The notes under the pieces: generated by a model | Databases searched by the model: none | Seen by the model: the letters and a program-made list of their open reading frames with translations, nothing else | What the model was told of the DNA's origin: nothing | Program-made: the position numbers and the translations under genes | NCBI RefSeq assembly: GCF_016587375.1 | Contig: NZ_BNJG01000001.1 | Location: 1,922,001-1,986,000, forward strand | DNA length: 64,000 nucleotides | Direction: 5' to 3' | DNA from: Ktedonobacter robiniae | GTDB lineage: Bacteria; Chloroflexota; Ktedonobacteria; Ktedonobacterales; Ktedonobacteraceae | Shown here: positions 11,560-20,363 of the stretch, piece by piece | Numbering within the stretch: the stretch's first letter is position 1 | How the letters are laid out: every line of letters starts with the position of its first letter

Positions 11560-14154
11560 TTAGATGGCCTGGACGGCAATGGAGCGTAGGGCTAGTTTGC
11601 CGTTCTGGACGTCGATCTGGACGGTGTCGCCGTCGCGCACGGAACCATCGAGGATAGCGCGCGCGATGCGGTTCTCGACCTCCTTCTGGATCGTTCGTTT
11701 GAGTGGGCGGGCGCCGAAGTGGGGATCGTAGCCTTCCTCGGCCAGGTAGTCCTTAGCGGCGTCGGTCAGTTGGAGCGTGATATGGCGCTCGGCCAGGCGC
11801 GGGCGCAAGCGGTTGATCTGAATATCGACGATGTTGCGCACCTGCTCCTTGCTGATGGGGTGAAAGATGATGACCTCGTCAATACGGTTGATAAACTCGG
11901 GCCGAAAGCCCTCCTCGCGCAGGCGCTGGCGCACCGAGCGCTGTACATCTTCCTCGTCCATGCCATCATACTCATGCAACCAGGCTGTGCCGACATTACT
12001 GGTCATGATAACGACAGTATTACGGAAGTCAACCGTACGCCCCTGGCCATCCGTCAAACGCCCATCATCCAATAGCTGCAACAGGACGTTAAAGACTTCG
12101 GGCGCGGCCTTCTCGATCTCGTCGAGCAAGATCACACTATAGGGGTGGCGGCGCACAGCCTCGGTGAGCTGGCCGCCTTCTTCGTAGCCCACATATCCAG
12201 GAGGCGCTCCGATCAGGCGCGAGACTGAGTGCTTCTCCATATACTCTGACATATCGATACGCACCATGGCCTGCTCATCATCAAAGAGGAACTCGGCCAG
12301 GGCACGCGCCAGCTCGGTTTTACCGACGCCGGTCGGACCAAGGAAGAGGAAGCTCGCCAGCGGACGATTGGGGTCTTGCAGGCCCGCACGCGAGCGACGT
12401 ATGGCATCTGATACCGCCTCAAGTGCCTGCTCCTGGCCCACAACACGCTCACGCAAACGCTCCTCCATGTGCAGGAGCTTCTGTACCTCGCCCTCCATCA
12501 TTTTGGAGACGGGGATATGCGTCCATTTCGAGACGATATTCGCGACATCCTCGGCATCCACCTCTTCTTTGAGCATACGCGAGGACCCTCCAGTCGAAAG
12601 CTTTGCCTCCATTGCCTGGATACGTTCCTCAAGCTCTTTGATGGTACCATAGCGCAGGCGCGCCATGCCCTCGTAGTCATAGGAGCGCTCGGCCTGCTCG
12701 TACTGGACCTGGGCCTCTTCAAGCTGCTTCTTGAGTGACCTCAGCTCATCCACGGGAGCGCGCTCGCTCTCCAGGGCCAGTTTCAAGGAGCGCAGTTGCT
12801 CATTCAAATTGGCGATCTCCGCCTCAACACGCTCGCGGCGCTCACGGCTGGCGGGATCGGTCTCTTTCTTCAGCGCCTCCTGCTCCACCTGTAACTGGCG
12901 TATGCGCCGGTCCAGGGCATCGATCTCGGTTGGTGTGCTATCCAGCTCCACACGACGATGACTGGCCGCCTCATCGATCAAGTCAATGGCTTTATCAGGC
13001 AGGAAACGGTCTGTGATATAGCGATTTGAGAGCATGGCCGCGGCCACAATGGCGCTATCCTGAATGCGTACGCCATGATGGACCTCGTAGCGCGGTTTCA
13101 GGCCACGCAGAATACTGATGGTATCCTCAACACTGGGTGGATCGACCAGCACTGGCTGGAAACGACGCTCAAGCGCGGCGTCCTTCTCAATATGTTTGCG
13201 ATACTCGTCGAGCGTGGTCGCACCAATACAATGCAGCTCACCACGCGCCAGCATTGGCTTGAGCATGTTTGAGGCATCCATCGCGCCCTCAGCGGCTCCC
13301 GCTCCGACAAGAGTATGCAACTCGTCGATAAAGAGGATAATGCCACCCTGGGCACTGGTGACCTCCTTCAGGACCGCTTTGAGTCTTTCTTCAAACTCAC
13401 CACGGAACTTGGCACCTGCGACCAGGGCGCTCAGGTCTAGGGTCACGACCTGTTTATTCTCCAGCGTCTTGGGAACATCACCACGCACAATGCGCTGGGC
13501 CAGGCCCTCTACAATGGCTGTTTTTCCAACGCCAGGCTCGCCGATCAAGACGGGATTATTCTTCGTGCGGCGGCTCAGCACCTGGATTACGCGCCGGATC
13601 TCTTCGTCGCGCCCAATGACGGGATCAAGCTTTCCCTCGCGCGCCGCCGAGGTCAGGTTACGCCCATACTTCTCCAACGCCTGGTATTTCCCCTCGGGAT
13701 TCTGATCGGTCACACGCTGCGCACCTCTAATGGATGTCAAAGCCTGTAAGACAGAGTCGCGACTCAAGCCAGCAGATTGCAGGGCTTTGCGCGCCTCGGT
13801 ATCGCTGTCGAAGAGCGCCAGGAGCAGGTGCTCGACGCTCATATATTCATCTTTAAATTTCCCCATCTCGCTCCACGCATCATCCAGGACTTTGTGCAAG
13901 CGAGGTGAGATGCCAGGATCACTGCCGCCATAGACGCGTGAGAGTCGATCCAGGTCGCCCTCGACACGGCGCAGAACGGCCTGCGTGCTTCCACCAGCTT
14001 TTTGAATAACCTGGGGTACAACCCCGCCCTCTTGCAACAGGAGTGCGTTCAGCAAATGTTCTGGCTCTACCTGCGCATGATTGCGGCTACGCGCAATCTC
14101 CGATGCCTCATATATAGCCTCGCGGGCTTTCTCTGTAAAGCGCTCTATTTTCAT
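11560..14154 (-). CDS. clpB: ATP-dependent disaggregase ClpB
   Basis: 864 residues from ATG 14154 (GGAGG 6 nt upstream; the frame extends six codons further but without a site). ClpB is a hexameric Hsp100 that threads aggregated proteins through its pore together with DnaK. Seen: Clp_N double repeat ([14 protein letters not shown]), AAA-1 Walker [13 protein letters not shown] and Walker [16 protein letters not shown], the [11 protein letters not shown] loop, a long coiled-coil middle domain (about 405-525), AAA-2 Walker [15 protein letters not shown], the [13 protein letters not shown] pore loop, [10 protein letters not shown] and a ClpB small domain. The middle domain length separates it from ClpC/ClpA. 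It is monocistronic, between a promoter at 14198-14227 and a palindromic terminator. Confidence 0.97.
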
Positions 14155-14197
14155 ATGCAGCCTCCATCGCACCCTGAAATGATTTTTTTACGCTATC

Positions 14198-14646: not shown

Positions 14647-17073
14647 GTGTCTCACCAACAAGCTACGTCTAAGCCTGCCAGTCATGTGATCTCGCGCAAG
14701 GCCCGCATCTGGCCGGAGATTCCCCAGGATAAGGTTCTGTTACCTAGCGCGCCACAGCTCCCACAGGGGCCACAGGTGGGGACACTTTCTTTTGTGCTTT
14801 TTAATCTACTGGGCATGGGACTCTATGTGCTTATCTTTAGTACCTTCAAAATTGGGGGAGGCGCTCAGTTCTTTTTGCTGCCATTTATCGCCATTTCGGG
14901 CATGATGGCGCTGGGGACAGTGACAAATTTCCTGGTACAACACTTCAGCACGAGACGTAAGAGTAAGGCATTGATGGAGCGCTATGAGGCACAGCTACAG
15001 AAGATAGAGCAGAGACTCCAGAGCTTGCACTGGAAAGAACGGCAGGCACGTCTGGACCTTGATCCGCCACTTCTTCCCCCCAGGCCTGAGCAACAACTCT
15101 ATCAGGGCCTGAGCATCGTGCCCTTGATAGAGCGCGGCTTCGATGAACAGGATACTCAGCTCTGGGCGCGCAAGCCAGATGATCCAGATTTCCTCACTGT
15201 GCGCATTGGCATGGGCAGCCAGCCAGCTACGTATGAAATTCAGGCTCCTCCCACTGCAAACACCTTCCCCGACCAGCCGAGCCTGGAGGCCTCTCTGGCG
15301 CGTGTCCAGGCCTCACAGGAGAGGCATAGCACGTTAAAGGTCCCCATCACAGTCAAACTCAACGAACCAGGGCCTATCGCGCTAGTGGGGACACGCGACA
15401 GGCTTGAGGCGGCGCGTGAGTTGCTACAGGCCATGGTCTGCCAGCTTGTCTATCACCATTCACCTGAAGAGGTGCGCATCATCATCCTGACCCCACGCTC
15501 ACAGGAGCAGGCCTGGCGCTGGGCAACGGCACTGCCGCATACGGTACTATATGATCCACGCCAGGCAGAAGAGGTTGTGGACGAGAGTAGTCAGAGACAT
15601 GCCGTCGCCATTGGCGCGGGGGCAATCCTTGAGTATTTGCCCTTAATCTCGCGGGAGTTGGGGCGGCGCGAACTCCTGCTTGGCGATACACGCCGGGAGG
15701 AAGGGCAACACCTCTTACCTCACCTGGTAATCGTCGTTGACCACTTCGATCTCTGGCAGGATCTAGATCAACCCTCGGCTCCGCAGCCCGTGGTCCCGCC
15801 CCATAACTCTATTCAGCGCACTGGCTCGCTTGAGCACCGACCTCAGCTCTCCGTCTCTCCCCTCAAGCGCCCCGAGATGACGCTGGCACTCAGCGGACCT
15901 ACAACTCTGGGGGTCTCAGTGCTCTGTCTCTGCGCACACAAGGCGGATGTCCCTATGAACAGCAACCTGCTGGTGGATATCACACACATTCAGGATGATA
16001 AGCAGGCAGGAAAGGAGAGTTATACACTCCAGGCGCAGGTGCGCCAGCTCTGTCCCAATCCGCCGCCCGCTATTACGTGCGACGAGGTAGACGGTGTGCC
16101 CTTGCAGGCGTTGAGCTACTTCTCACAGCGTATGTTCCCGCTGCATGTCAACCGCACTAAACGCCTGGAGTTGCGCACGCAGGTCGATCTGCGTACGCTC
16201 TTCGAGCCACCACTTGACCTGCTCTACTATGACCCCTTCGCCTACTGGAGCGATCCTATGTTCCGTGGGCGCGACGCGAAGGGCAAAGAGATGCCCATGA
16301 TGCGTATTCCCATTGGAACGAAGATAGGTGATGAGATTCAATACCTGGATCTGCTCAAGGATGGCCCTCATGGCCTGCTCATCGGACAGACTGGTTCAGG
16401 CAAGAGCGAACTGCTCCAGACCATTATCATGGCGCTCTCCATCATCTATCGCCCCAATGAGGTCAATTTTCTGCTGATCGACTACAAAGCGGGGCTGGCG
16501 CTGGAGCCTTTCCGCCATTTGCCGCATACCATCGGCTTTCTCTCCAACGTCTCCTCGCCCGCGCTCATCCAACGCTTTATTACGATGTTACGAGCCGAGG
16601 CCACGCGTCGTGAGATCCGCATGAAAGAAGGCAAGAAATCGCCGCGCATCATCATCATCATTGACGAGTTTGCCGAGATGGCCAAGCAGACCGATTCTGT
16701 TCTAGATGAGCTCTTCACGATCACACGCGTTGGGCGCGAGATTGGCATGCACCTGCTCCTGGCATCACAGCGACCCGAGGGCATTATCGCCACGCGCGTC
16801 CGAGACTATGTCCAGTACAGACTTTGCCTGCGCTGCGCCTCGCCGGAGGATAGTCGGGAGATCCTGCGTCGCGTCGATGCCGCCTACCTGCCCGCTAGCA
16901 TTCCAGGGAGAGGCTATCTCCTGCATGGAGACAACCAGCTTGATCTCTTCCAGGCGGCCCGCGTCTCGATCCCTGTCACCCTCGACCAGCTCTATGTCAA
17001 ACCCAATGGGATCGAGACCCCAGTCGATCCCACCAACGACGTCCTGATCGCCCAGCTAGCAGCAGAAAAGTAA
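14647..17073 (+). CDS. Type VII secretion FtsK/SpoIIIE ATPase (EccCa/EssC-like)
   Basis: 808 residues from GTG 14647 behind GAGGGAGGGG. This is the membrane motor half of an Esx/WXG100 export machine. Two transmembrane helices (about 46-66 and 75-98) are followed by a cytoplasmic coiled part and a degenerate first FtsK-like region. The FtsK domain then has Walker A GQTGSGKSE (about 579), a LLIDYKAG strand, Walker B IIIIDEFAEM (about 669), the LLASQRPEG sensor and RLCLRCAS. It ends with PGRGYLLHG as in EccC. The second ATPase is a separate gene 75 bp downstream, like EccCa1/EccCb1 of mycobacteria rather than one-piece EssC. A strong hairpin separates the two genes. Confidence 0.87.
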   Translation: MSHQQATSKPASHVISRKARIWPEIPQDKVLLPSAPQLPQGPQVGTLSFVLFNLLGMGLYVLIFSTFKIGGGAQFFLLPFIAISGMMALGTVTNFLVQHFSTRRKSKALMERYEAQLQKIEQRLQSLHWKERQARLDLDPPLLPPRPEQQLYQGLSIVPLIERGFDEQDTQLWARKPDDPDFLTVRIGMGSQPATYEIQAPPTANTFPDQPSLEASLARVQASQERHSTLKVPITVKLNEPGPIALVGTRDRLEAARELLQAMVCQLVYHHSPEEVRIIILTPRSQEQAWRWATALPHTVLYDPRQAEEVVDESSQRHAVAIGAGAILEYLPLISRELGRRELLLGDTRREEGQHLLPHLVIVVDHFDLWQDLDQPSAPQPVVPPHNSIQRTGSLEHRPQLSVSPLKRPEMTLALSGPTTLGVSVLCLCAHKADVPMNSNLLVDITHIQDDKQAGKESYTLQAQVRQLCPNPPPAITCDEVDGVPLQALSYFSQRMFPLHVNRTKRLELRTQVDLRTLFEPPLDLLYYDPFAYWSDPMFRGRDAKGKEMPMMRIPIGTKIGDEIQYLDLLKDGPHGLLIGQTGSGKSELLQTIIMALSIIYRPNEVNFLLIDYKAGLALEPFRHLPHTIGFLSNVSSPALIQRFITMLRAEATRREIRMKEGKKSPRIIIIIDEFAEMAKQTDSVLDELFTITRVGREIGMHLLLASQRPEGIIATRVRDYVQYRLCLRCASPEDSREILRRVDAAYLPASIPGRGYLLHGDNQLDLFQAARVSIPVTLDQLYVKPNGIETPVDPTNDVLIAQLAAEK

Positions 17074-17079
17074 TTTTGT

Positions 17080-17128
17080 GTGTAGGGTGCACGCTGACAG
17101 CCGCTGGCTGTCAGCGTGCACCCTACAC
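17080..17128 (+). terminator. Hairpin between the two EccC-like genes
   Basis: Perfect 23-bp arms, 3-nt loop (GCC-gct-GGC tip), immediately after the eccCa-like stop and 20 bp before the next start. As both genes are same-strand, it could attenuate or protect rather than fully terminate. Confidence 0.7.
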
Positions 17129-17148
17129 CACAATAGAAAGAGAGAAAG

Positions 17149-18270
17149 ATGAGCACCCCCCATTTACAAACATTTCAGAATGCACAGACGGTTGCCGAGG
17201 TTCTGGTTGGGCGCATTACCGAAACCTACTCGCGCGAGGATGCGCGCAAGGCTGGCATTTACTACTGGCCGGAGCCGCTGCCAATGCCCAGCCAGCCCCT
17301 TGATCCCGATCCATTGATTCTTTTTCGTCCCGGGGGCGAGCATGAACAGCTAGCAGGCTCCCGTCCTGGGCGCGTATCGCTTGTGCGCGGAAGTATCGCC
17401 GAGTTTCTTGCCAAACATGAGCGAGAACGTCTCAAACCAACAATGCAGCTTCCCCTGGGCCTTGTAGACAAGCCTGAGCAGCAGAAGCAGGAGACGCTTA
17501 TCGTCGATCTGCATGGTTCAGCGGGAGCTTTGAGCGGCGGCCCGCTTTTGATTGCAGGCGCGCAGCATAGTGGCAAGAGTACGGCACTGCAAAGCATCCT
17601 GCTCTGGCTCACCACGTACTATGGCCCCAACCAATTGCGCTGCGCCATCATCGACCCACACTATGAACTGGATGTCTTTCGCGAACTGCCCCATCTCCTT
17701 GATGACGAAGGGCATCAGCTCTGGACTGATGGTAGCAGCGACGAGAAGCTGGAGGAGTTCGCGCGAAACATGCATGGTCTGCTGGCCAAACGGCGCGAGG
17801 CATTCCCTGAGCAGCGTTGGACAGAGAACAGCCTGGGTCAGCTCTGGGCGCAGGGGCATGTTATTCCCCAGGTACTACTCATTATCTGCCACTATCATAG
17901 CTTTGCCGAGCGCTTCAACGCCACCATAACGCTGAAGAAGCTTGCTCTAGCGATGGCCGAGGCCCGCACCATGGGAATGTACCTGGTGGTCAGTAGCGCC
18001 GAGGTAGGGTACCGCTTCCTCTCGTCAGAGCTGATGGGAAAATTTGGCACCAGCATCGGACTGTACCTCAATGAGATCCAGCGCTTAGACCTTTTTGGGC
18101 GTCCCCCCATCCTGCCGGACCCCATTCCTGGCCGTGGCCTGATCCTGGCACCAGATCGCAGCATTCACCAGGTGCAACTGGCCCTGCCCATTGCAGGCCC
18201 CAGCGAGAGCGTGCGCTACGAAATACTCAAGCATGAGATCGCCAAACTTGCTACACGCTATAACGCTTGA
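17149..18270 (+). CDS. Second type VII secretion FtsK/SpoIIIE ATPase (EccCb-like)
   Basis: 373 residues, no membrane helix. One FtsK-like ATPase domain: Walker A AGAQHSGKST (about 134), followed by a CAIIDPHYELD strand equivalent to the DYKxG strand of the larger partner. The Walker B position reads LLIICHYHSF, without the usual Asp-Asp/Glu, so hydrolysis may be weak or absent. It ends in PGRGLILAPD, a typical EccC closing segment. By analogy, the C-terminal ATPase of EccC binds the export signal of Esx substrates; this single-domain protein may do so here. It is paired with the membrane ATPase upstream and lies 730 bp from the convergent WXG100-like gene. Confidence 0.8.
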   Translation: MSTPHLQTFQNAQTVAEVLVGRITETYSREDARKAGIYYWPEPLPMPSQPLDPDPLILFRPGGEHEQLAGSRPGRVSLVRGSIAEFLAKHERERLKPTMQLPLGLVDKPEQQKQETLIVDLHGSAGALSGGPLLIAGAQHSGKSTALQSILLWLTTYYGPNQLRCAIIDPHYELDVFRELPHLLDDEGHQLWTDGSSDEKLEEFARNMHGLLAKRREAFPEQRWTENSLGQLWAQGHVIPQVLLIICHYHSFAERFNATITLKKLALAMAEARTMGMYLVVSSAEVGYRFLSSELMGKFGTSIGLYLNEIQRLDLFGRPPILPDPIPGRGLILAPDRSIHQVQLALPIAGPSESVRYEILKHEIAKLATRYNA

Positions 18271-18447
18271 GAGTTCGCTACTGGCGTACGCGACTACTAT
18301 GGGGCTGTGCCTGACATACAGCCAAATATAAACGCTAAGTTTACGGGTCCGCTGGTAAATTTTGTCTGGGCAAGTTGCCGAGCTTGGAAGGCCATCCATT
18401 GTGCAAGCCAGTTCTCCAAGTTCAGTAGGAACCTCCACGATGAATCG

Positions 18448-18609
18448 GGAGGCTAGCGCGTCCGAACGCCATAAATGGCGTTCGGCGTAAGCCGTTTTTT
18501 TGGACAGGGGAGATGCAACCTGATACGCGATATGACGCAAGGGAGCGCTTCGGGTTACGCCCACAGGCGATCAATCGCCTTTGGACGCGGTAAACCGGGT
18601 CCCTACCGG
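18448..18609 (-). repeat. PATE-like double-hairpin element, copy 2 (inverted)
   Basis: Opposite orientation to 14316-14476. Palindromes at 18462-18485 (CCGAACGCCAT-aa-ATGGCGTTCGG) and 18565-18580 (AGGCGAT-ca-ATCGCCT). The block from about 18565 to 18607, reverse-complemented, matches copy 1 closely, including CGCGTCCAAAGGCGATT and GGTAGGGACC. Confidence 0.6.
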
Positions 18610-18961
18610 CATAGAAGTTGCCTCGGTGGGGATTATCTGGACAACATTACAAAATTTGCCAGCGGAGTCATCAATGTGATGCTCGTGAAGAGGAGCCAAC
18701 CTCTACAGGAGAAGGCTGTGGTGAGAAAACGGGGAGAGAAGGAAGGCGTGTGAGTTCGCAGGCACAAGACCACGAAGAGACAAGTAATAATGGGCAAAGA
18801 AGGCCATCGAACATACACGCCCAATACGTGGGATCGGCAGCCAGGCGCAAACGCCCTCGGTACCGGATGTGGGAGGTTTGTATATGACCCTGACAAGGGA
18901 TTGGGCCTATACAAACCCATCACATTGTGTGACCCTTTATCTTTACATGGTCACCTCTCAA

Positions 18962-18980
18962 ATACACAATAGTTGTGTAT
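18962..18980. terminator. Small hairpin downstream of the WXG100-like gene
   Basis: ATACACAA-tag-TTGTGTAT, 8-bp arms; possible weak terminator on the minus strand 21 bp after the stop at 19002. Confidence 0.4.
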
Positions 18981-19001
18981 GTATCCTGCCGGTTCAGGAA
19001 A

Positions 19002-19286
19002 TTAGTGCATGCCGTTGAGGCGGCTTATGTGGCTGCTGCTGTCATCCAGCATATTCTGCAAAGCACCGTTGTAGCGCCCCATCTGATCGGTGATGTTGGC
19101 GACGTTGGTAGTCCAGCTATTCAGTGAATCCTGAAAGTTCGCAATCTGGTTGCCATTGAAAGAGTTGTTCAAGAGGTTGTTCGCTACATGAAAGTCCTTC
19201 AAGACATTTGTCAGGTTAGCCTGAATGTTGCTCAGATTAGAAATCAGGACACTAAGGCTTTCGAGATCCAGATTTACACCTGCCAT
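19002..19286 (-). CDS. WXG100-like (Esx) secreted protein with FNG in place of WXG
   Basis: 94 residues from ATG 19286, behind AAGGAG 10 nt upstream; the frame runs 22 codons further without a site. Length, lack of a signal peptide and predicted helix-turn-helix hairpin fit the WXG100 family exported by type VII systems. The turn reads NSFNGNQIANF: Phe43-Asn-Gly45 stands where Trp-x-Gly is expected, with F51 and W58 at the usual later aromatic positions. It is Asn-rich for this family. The two EccC-like ATPases are 0.7 kb away, convergent. The call rests on architecture and context; an unrelated helical protein cannot be excluded. Confidence 0.65.
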   Translation of the reverse strand: MAGVNLDLESLSVLISNLSNIQANLTNVLKDFHVANNLLNNSFNGNQIANFQDSLNSWTTNVANITDQMGRYNGALQNMLDDSSSHISRLNGMH

Positions 19287-19349
19287 TTTGAATATTCTCC
19301 TTACTACGTATCTTCTATAGTATTCTGGCCTTGCGACTTTTATATTGGC

Positions 19350-19378: not shown

Positions 19379-19631
19379 TACTTTATCAGAGTATATTTTT
19401 AAAGTCAATATATTTTTACACTAAAATATCGTAGATTAATATATTTTAATTGTAATTATATGCAAACATGTTACTTTATCTATATATTTTGCATAAAATG
19501 CAATCAGAACATGGACGATATGAAACGACCTTCAAACTCAGGTGTTCTTCATGTAATGATTGTTCAGAGGGACAGGCATGGTGGCTAGTTGGCTATTAGA
19601 TAGAGAAAGAAGAAGAATTTTCTGGTGATTG

Positions 19632-19640
19632 TGTTATACT
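19632..19640 (+). promoter_or_regulatory. Extended -10 element directly before scpB
   Basis: TG-t-TATACT with its end 9 nt before the scpB ATG at 19650, predicting transcription starting at or within a few bases of the ATG. No ribosome binding site fits between, which suggests a leaderless mRNA. Confidence 0.45.
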
Positions 19641-19649
19641 TTTCTCACT

Positions 19650-20363
19650 ATGCAAGAGAACAAGCTCGAACCATCGCTTGAGAGGGCCATAAGCGCCCAG
19701 GGGCCAGTTTTGGCGCCCGAGGCACACCAGTTGGGGGCAGCTATCGAAAGCCTGCTCTTCGTCTCTGGACGCCCTTTAGAACGTGCGGAGCTGCGCAAGT
19801 TGCTGGGTGTCGGGAATGAGCAATTGGAGCCCGGCATCAGGGCGCTGGAGTCTACGCTTCAGAATGGACAGCGAGGGATTCGCCTCCAACAGCTGGGTGA
19901 ACAGGTGCAGCTTGTCACCGCGCCAGAGAATGCGCATTATGTTGCGGCCCTGCTGGGGCTTCCCATGAGCGCTAAGCTGACGAATGCAGCCCTGGAAACG
20001 TTAGCGGTCATAGCTTACCGCCAGCCCATGACGCGCAGCCAGATTGAAGCCGTGCGCGGCGTGAACAGCGACCGTGCGCTGGCAAGCCTGCTGCAACACG
20101 GGCTGGTGGCTGAAGTCGGTCGCGCCCAAACAGTGGGACGTCCGGCGCTCTTCGCAACCACCGCCGAGTTTCTACAGCAATTCGGCCTGACCAGCCTGGA
20201 GGAGTTGCCACATATCGACCTGGCAACCCAGCAGATGCGTACCGTGCCAACTGAGACGACGGAACAAAGTATGCCCAACGGCGAGAGTAGCCAACCTGGC
20301 CAGAACTCCGCCGCCAGCCAGCCAAATCTCCCTACGTTTCAGGTGCCCCAGGGCACAGACTAA
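19650..20363 (+). CDS. scpB: Segregation and condensation protein B
   Basis: 237 residues from ATG 19650. ScpB is the dimeric winged-helix kleisin partner of the SMC-ScpA condensin. The core (about 25-175) shows IESLLFVSGRPLE, the GIRLQQLGEQVQLVT wing, AALETLAVIAYRQPMTR, IEAVRGVNSDRALASLL and GRPALFATT, all typical. The C-terminal 55 residues are a low-complexity Gln/Ser/Pro tail. scpA is not adjacent, which is unusual because scpA and scpB are commonly linked. The endonuclease IV gene follows 51 bp later, likely co-transcribed. Confidence 0.92.
   Translation: MQENKLEPSLERAISAQGPVLAPEAHQLGAAIESLLFVSGRPLERAELRKLLGVGNEQLEPGIRALESTLQNGQRGIRLQQLGEQVQLVTAPENAHYVAALLGLPMSAKLTNAALETLAVIAYRQPMTRSQIEAVRGVNSDRALASLLQHGLVAEVGRAQTVGRPALFATTAEFLQQFGLTSLEELPHIDLATQQMRTVPTETTEQSMPNGESSQPGQNSAASQPNLPTFQVPQGTD

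Follow-up and report, generated by a model that had tools for sequence, protein, structure and literature searches.

The Locus and the Question

The locus described here raises the question of how far a type VII secretion system (T7SS) can be reduced. In Ktedonobacter robiniae, a 64,000-nucleotide stretch of contig NZ_BNJG01000001.1 (the window) carries neighboring genes for a membrane EccC-like ATPase (eccCa), a separate single-domain ATPase (eccCb) and a 94-residue helical hairpin (esx). An earlier reading of the letters alone (the original prediction) had taken them as a minimal T7SS locus; the open reading frames (ORFs) lie where it placed them, and profile matches agree with all three assignments. 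According to PMC11217815, a WXG100 protein and an EccC/EssC ATPase with four nucleoside triphosphatase (NTPase) domains make up the T7SS core, joined in every type but T7SSd by a ubiquitin-like protein. What is unusual about the K. robiniae cassette is that several features have been lost together within one clade: the last ATPase domain (D3), the cargo reader of known systems; the acidic Walker B residue of the preceding domain (D2); a ubiquitin-like partner of its own; and the Esx export signal, in both its halves. On balance, we infer that the cassette is probably a reduced three-gene T7SS variant that exports its own, differently recognized Esx.

Gene Set and Conservation

We compared 41 genomes, namely that of the window (G000) and 40 relatives. 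The eccCa–eccCb pair was found in 10 of them (G000, G001, G003, G009, G011, G014, G019, G022, G024 and G032), twice in G019, and a further pair locus was found in Dictyobacter kobayashii (L052). These 12 loci, all from Ktedonobacterales, formed the comparison set, and eccCb follows eccCa at every one of them. Among the carriers are Ktedonobacter sp. SOSP1-85, K. racemifer, D. kobayashii, D. vulcani and a Ktedonobacteria metagenome-assembled genome. The reading frames are intact at all 12 loci, with EccCa identity down to ~43%, and the ratio of nonsynonymous to synonymous substitution rates (dN/dS) of the ATPase genes was ~0.1–0.2 in three close relatives. Because the pair recurs at 12 loci, the ATPase genes show this low dN/dS and the hairpin profile matches WXG100 proteins (see below), the gene set is not a product of chance.

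The borders of the cassette were read from an empty site. In G007 (L136), which lacks the EccC pair, a clpB-type gene and scpB are separated by ~160 bases; in the window the distance is ~5.5 kb, with eccCa, eccCb and esx in between. Since clpB and scpB nearly touch at the empty site, the cassette comprises exactly three genes, which G007 may have lost or never possessed. G002, a Ktedonobacter without the pair, also lacks clpB at the corresponding place.

EccCa Is a Membrane EccC/EssC ATPase

The 808-residue protein matched the profiles of EssC (TIGR03928, E = 2.6e-97) and EccCa (TIGR03924, E = 1.8e-88, residues 35–776), in both cases below the equivalog cut-off, and its PDB sequence matches included EccC of T. 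curvata (4nh0, 2.8e-84) and YukB (9qks, 2.2e-80). EccC belongs to the FtsK/SpoIIIE family, and EccCa was much closer to T. curvata EccC (287 bits) than to FtsK (68 bits), so that the locus has the membrane FtsK/SpoIIIE-type ATPase expected of a T7SS core. Two transmembrane (TM) segments start near residues 44 and 71 (about 44–89), followed by a degenerate D0/DUF region and a D1 domain that looks active: the Walker A motif GQTGSGKS is present at 12 of 12 loci, and the DE of Walker B was found by pattern at 11 (L044 was missed by the pattern). When the whole assembly was searched with EccCa as query, no further EccC-like ATPase was detected besides an FtsK-type ORF of 1119 residues.

EccCb Is a Stand-Alone D2, and D3 Is Absent

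Twelve full-length EssC proteins of Ktedonobacterales served to build separate profiles of D1, D2 and D3. EccCb of the window scored 84.4 bits against D2, 33.3 against D3 and 22.0 against D1, and D2 was the best-scoring profile for EccCb at all 12 loci. In agreement, EccCb matched positions 779–1043 of TIGR03928 (1.2e-29), which is the D2 region, and its best PDB sequence match was 5fv0 (6.2e-26). No D3 was found by profile search in the pair or in any other ORF of the 12 loci. Note that the EccCa query does pick up D3 within the full-length EssC proteins of relatives, and that in G000 it detected only the FtsK-type ORF besides the pair. The four NTPase domains D0–D3 of EccC/EssC are thus incomplete here. 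EccCb keeps Walker A, and the stretch LLIICHYHSF, which the original prediction had called a degenerate Walker B, is indeed one: an acidic residue at this site is absent at 12 of 12 loci, unlike in the D2 of full-length EssC, where Walker B mostly reads IDN or IDD. As a separate observation, EccCb of G022 (L041:10546-12288) is extended at its N-terminus by 200 residues that include a VDT-rich repeat.

The split of EccC had been considered worthy of study. It is present, but a break between D1 and D2 has a precedent, as EccC of Mycobacterium tuberculosis ESX-1 is reported to be divided between ATPase1 and ATPase2 (PMC6954902). The two systems are alike in having a membrane D0–D1 protein, a soluble ATPase protein and a small Esx hairpin. 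However, EccCb1 of ESX-1 consists of D2 and D3, the latter binding the EsxB C-terminus (PMC6954902), whereas EccCb of the cassette is D2 only. ESX-1 is also described as having EccB, EccD and EccE, together with two paired Esx proteins that carry WxG and YxxxD/E (PMC6954902, PMC10765036).

The stand-alone D2 protein was also looked for in 301 Chloroflexota genomes, with at most six candidates scored per genome. Stand-alone D2 proteins of at least 525 bits occurred at seven places in six genomes, all from two families of Ktedonobacterales, and the next match after the cassette group (109 bits) lay inside a fused EssC. Because strong stand-alone D2 is restricted in this way, the phylum as a whole does not use this machine, although the original prediction had suggested that it might.

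The Hairpin Is Related to WXG100 Proteins

Against PF06013, the 94-residue protein alone reached E = 0.014 and 16.1 bits, under the cut-off of 27.3 bits, and one cassette hairpin of G032 exceeded the cut-off (29.1 bits) despite having no Trp. A profile of the cassette hairpins aligned by hhalign with nine WXG100 proteins adjoining full-length EssC gave a probability of 84.3 and E = 7.2e-6, while 100 column shuffles reached at most 1.0 and the reversed profile 1.9, indicating homology and bearing out the proposed WXG100 kinship. In the PDB sequence search, the best match was an ESAT-6-like protein (E = 0.014), and Esx/WXG100 proteins made up 11 of the 25 rows at E <= 1. The AlphaFold2 model is a helix-turn-helix, with helices at residues 8–44 and 48–92, FNG at the turn and a predicted local distance difference test score of 81.8. 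Structure searches with this model returned generic helical hairpins, with no WXG100 chain among the 50 matches listed in either list. A genome-wide Pfam WXG100 search at E <= 10 gave noise-level matches only, the cassette hairpin included, and no second Esx was found in the window's genome, as predicted. At E <= 0.001, G000, G001 and G014 had no WXG100 match; the matches of G032 included its two cassette hairpins.

Relatives of Esx adjoin the pair at eight of the 12 loci (the window, L035, L036, L037, L038, L041, L042 and L052), giving 10 hairpins, since L042 and L052 have two each. A linked WXG100/Esx-type gene is therefore part of the locus, though the Esx itself is without WxG. The hairpin genes lie 3' of eccCb on the opposite strand at seven of the eight loci, ~60 bases to 2.2 kb away; at L042, one lies upstream of eccCa.

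Joint Losses and a Proposed Order of Events

The substitution of Phe for the Trp of WxG noted in the original prediction is real, and it is part of a general pattern: the turns of the 10 cassette hairpins read FNG (three times), LSG, LTG, FGG, VSG, VHG, IAG and IQG. The Trp was present in none of them but in all nine WXG100 proteins beside full-length EssC, which were hand-picked from the matches there (others, e.g., at L068 and L055, were not aligned). Likewise, an in-register [hydrophobic]xxx[D/E] motif was found in 0 of 10 cassette hairpins versus 9 of 9 WXG100 proteins (eight YxxxD/E and one FQDLD). Fisher's test gave 1.1e-5 for the 0/10 versus 9/9 contrast, a descriptive value, as all rows are related. 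WxG and YxxxD/E are reported to form one spatially continuous signal (PMC10765036). A hairpin without WxG is not new in itself, since Lap, EsxC and EsxD are known as such among export partners (PMC10765036).

The reduced architecture has a fused relative. In the D1 tree, the 12 split proteins formed one group (support 99/97), with L048 as sister (100/98), although the position of L048 is unsure because of its long branch. L048 (L048:8185-11514, G030 C6, from another family of the order) is a fused EssC of 1109 residues that has just two ATPase domains, D1 and one other, and lacks D3; a hairpin with IQG is encoded nearby (L048:5405-5842). It differs from the cassette in being one gene and in keeping Walker B in the second ATPase domain (VVVVDEY). 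L048 possibly represents the ancestor type. Because this fused sister is already without D3, the loss of D3 appears to have preceded the split, and the simplest order of events suggested by the sequences would be loss of D3, then the split, then loss of the D2 Walker B.

Other T7SS Components

EssB/YukC was found in none of the 41 genomes, including the window's assembly, and the Bacillus subtilis control was positive. No match to EccD (TIGR03920) exceeded the cut-off in the 41 genomes; the matches covered mostly the ubiquitin-like part, and the control genomes were silent too. The EccB profile also matched none of the 41 genomes, but no control genome matched either, so that absence of EccB is not demonstrated by this search. 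EsaA was over the cut-off in 0 of 41 genomes, with none in G000 and weak partial matches in four genomes and in three control genomes besides B. subtilis. No complete ESX locus with its own EccC was found elsewhere in the assembly, an outcome that the original prediction had named as contrary to its reading.

At many full-length EssC loci of the relatives, a YukD-type gene lies just upstream of EssC. None was found at the cassette, and G014 and G032 carry the pair without any YukD match, so that a ubiquitin-like domain of the TsxB/EsaB/YukD or EccD kind is missing from the gene set. The only YukD match in G000, a YukD-domain protein (505 residues, L056:5677-7194, on G000 C1 near 825 kb; related ORFs occur in many relatives), was rejected as an EccD: it combines a YukD-like domain with a single TM segment and a part that we take, from our own reading of its sequence and not from a library match, to be WD40-like, and it is also present in genomes without T7SS.

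The original prediction had pointed to missing channel parts. No channel homologue was found in the searches for EccB, EccD, EssB and EsaA, but the lack of EccB/D/E or of EssA/B/EsaA is not special, since T7SSc–j, as described in PMC11217815, are without them as well, and the EssC-bearing Ktedonobacterales have no EssB either (0 of 41 genomes).

The full-length EssC loci (L045, L047, L059 and L061–L068) come from the same order and encode EccC/EssC relatives; unlike the cassette, they have an EssC of ~1340–1400 residues with D1, D2 and D3, and WXG100 proteins with WxG and YxxxD/E. Ktedonobacter sp. SOSP1-85 has both the cassette and a full-length EssC system, and a full-length EssC is missing from G000, G001, G014 and G032, which carry the pair (G001 has an additional, weakly matching ORF of 1780 residues). 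K. racemifer DSM 44963 likewise carries the cassette (L036/L051) with neither a full-length EssC nor a WXG100 match. At the SOSP1-85 full-length locus, a WXG100 protein, a WXG100–EndoU fusion and a TIR protein lie beside EssC (L045:4906-6766 and 11817-13118). Two kinase–WD40 proteins are encoded near a full-length EssC at L046:14572-18338, and related genes lie beside EssC at L047.

Coordinates and Neighboring Genes

Table 1. Features of the cassette and its borders, in window coordinates.
Feature	Position	Strand	Basis
eccCa-like gene, 808 aa	14647..17073	+	ORF; TIGR03924 1.8e-88; kept at 12 loci
Walker A of D1, GQTGSGKS, residues 580-587	16384..16407	+	invariant in alignment, 12/12
Walker B acidic pair DE of D1, residues 673-674	16663..16668	+	alignment
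eccCb-like gene, 373 aa, single ATPase domain akin to EssC D2, without D3	17149..18270	+	domain profiles
Walker A of D2-like domain, GAQHSGKS, residues 137-144	17557..17580	+	alignment
Degenerate Walker B LLIICHYHSF, residues 243-252, no acidic residue	17875..17904	+	alignment, 12/12
esx-like gene, 94 aa helical hairpin, convergent to ATPase genes	19002..19286	-	ORF, profiles, model
FNG turn, residues 43-45, in place of WxG	19152..19160	-	alignment, model
AAGGAG ribosome-binding site of esx-like gene, ten bases upstream of start 19286	19297..19302	-	sequence
clpB-type gene, left border, outside cassette	11560..14172	-	ORF; comparison with G007
scpB, right border, outside cassette	19629..20363	+	PF04079 2.3e-51

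No Pfam family matched the ORF between eccCb and esx (18475–18753), which we did not treat as a gene. L039, L043, L044 and L052 have the pair at a second, common location, where the neighbors are unrelated genes (Pfam names were assigned there for ten neighbors of L044 only), and no extra neighbor is conserved across all pair loci. A membrane protein weakly matching a glucosaminidase domain (window:8976-10010) was considered as a cell-wall partner and rejected, as it belongs to a multicopy family, with seven matches in the window's genome, whose orthologues also occur without the cassette. A large protein conserved beside scpB (window:21373-24195) combines a zinc ribbon at its N-terminus with repeated domains of the BACON/choice-of-anchor type. 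In G009, four similar adjoining ORFs of 324–362 residues lie upstream of the EccC pair (L040:10888-14808).

Discussion

At the level of sequence, it is established which genes form the set, how they are conserved, which domains they encode and which features were lost jointly. How the cassette would work is a matter of proposal. EccCa would form a membrane ring, and possibly the channel, with ATP hydrolysis supplied by D1; EccCb would dock below it as a separate ring that binds ATP without hydrolyzing it, gates D1 and takes over substrate docking through D2; and Esx would be the exported substrate, probably as a homodimer, because only one gene was found. In Streptococcus intermedius, Walker motifs are reported to be needed in D1 only (PMC13355648). 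With D3 gone and Esx recognized by another surface, selection for the WxG Trp and the YxxxD/E arm would have been lost.

Several points weigh against this reading. Loss of D3 abolishes secretion in Staphylococcus aureus (PMC9436818), as does truncation of any ATPase domain, D3 included, in S. intermedius (PMC13355648), so that a machine without D3 might be inactive or otherwise employed. Four of the 12 loci (L039, L040, L043 and L044) have no recognizable Esx gene beside the pair, though L044 shares its genome (G019) with L038, which has one. The dN/dS of esx was 0.63–0.70, from very few changes, which corresponds to weak purifying selection. Out-of-register stretches resembling the lost motif occur in two of the 10 hairpins, those of L052 (YNTVE, ISKID) and L038 (VSAVD), and the Fisher value overstates independence because the 10 hairpins are related.

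It is rather unlikely that the cassette is only the core of a complete T7SS, the rest of whose membrane components lie elsewhere in the genome and have diverged beyond recognition. T7SSc–j are described as having their own type-specific membrane parts unrelated to EccB/D/E (PMC11217815), the EccB profile was silent in control genomes as well, and the assembly is 96.6% complete; however, the empty site delimits three genes only, the search for EccD/EssB-like proteins that had been proposed as a check returned no EssB in 41 genomes and EccD only as a ubiquitin-like part, no extra neighbor is conserved at the pair loci, and the nearest candidate partner, the peptidoglycan-hydrolase-like protein, is of a multicopy family also found without the cassette. 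We consider it improbable that the pair no longer exports and acts as an intracellular FtsK/HerA-like pump or regulator, e.g., in the development of spores or filaments, Esx being its cytoplasmic regulator. Such a role would suit a pair without D3 and an Esx without the export signal, as well as the place of EccC within the FtsK/SpoIIIE family, but EccCa retains two TM segments and the D0 region and is nearer to EccC/EssC than to FtsK, and Esx is related to secreted WXG100 proteins. That the cassette is a decaying remnant of a full T7SS seems highly improbable: domains are missing, sister species retain full-length EssC and the pair is absent from G002, of the same genus, through loss or from the outset, yet the frames are intact across 12 loci down to ~43% EccCa identity, the ATPase genes have dN/dS of ~0.1–0.2 and the reduced form is one clade.

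Returning to the cassette as a reduced exporting system, its resemblance to known types is partial. With T7SSb (EssC/EsxA of Bacillota) it shares one Esx gene, an EccC/EssC-type ATPase and an intact ATPase in D1, but it is without FHA domains, D3, the D2 Walker B acid, WxG and YxxxD/E, and EssB, EsaA and EsaB were not found for it (EssA was not searched). With T7SSc–T7SSj (Garrett et al. 2024, PMC11217815) it shares a core of EccC-type ATPase and Esx with other membrane parts absent or type-specific, and with T7SSd the lack of a ubiquitin-like protein; in that account, however, TsxC has four NTPase domains in all types, and the types are described only from Bacillota and Actinomycetota. Actinobacteria and Firmicutes are reported to account for almost all WXG100 proteins and Chloroflexi for a few (PMC3935865), and our searches of one literature library for type VII secretion, EccC or WXG100 in Ktedonobacter, Ktedonobacteria and Chloroflexota returned no title on this cassette. 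We tentatively suggest, with the doubts slightly prevailing, that it could represent a further T7SS type confined to Ktedonobacterales, lacking D3, a ubiquitin-like partner and WxG plus YxxxD/E, and using a non-hydrolyzing D2 ring as receptor for a substrate with a different address.

In the systems studied so far, D3 and the bipartite signal are essential. If receptor and signal co-evolve, a clade should exist in which both the receptor domain and the signal have disappeared, as is the case here. Should the cassette still export, it would be a near-minimal T7SS of two ATPase proteins and one substrate, showing how little the machine needs, and it would make two questions testable: whether EccC alone can serve as the membrane channel, and what the role of D2 is.

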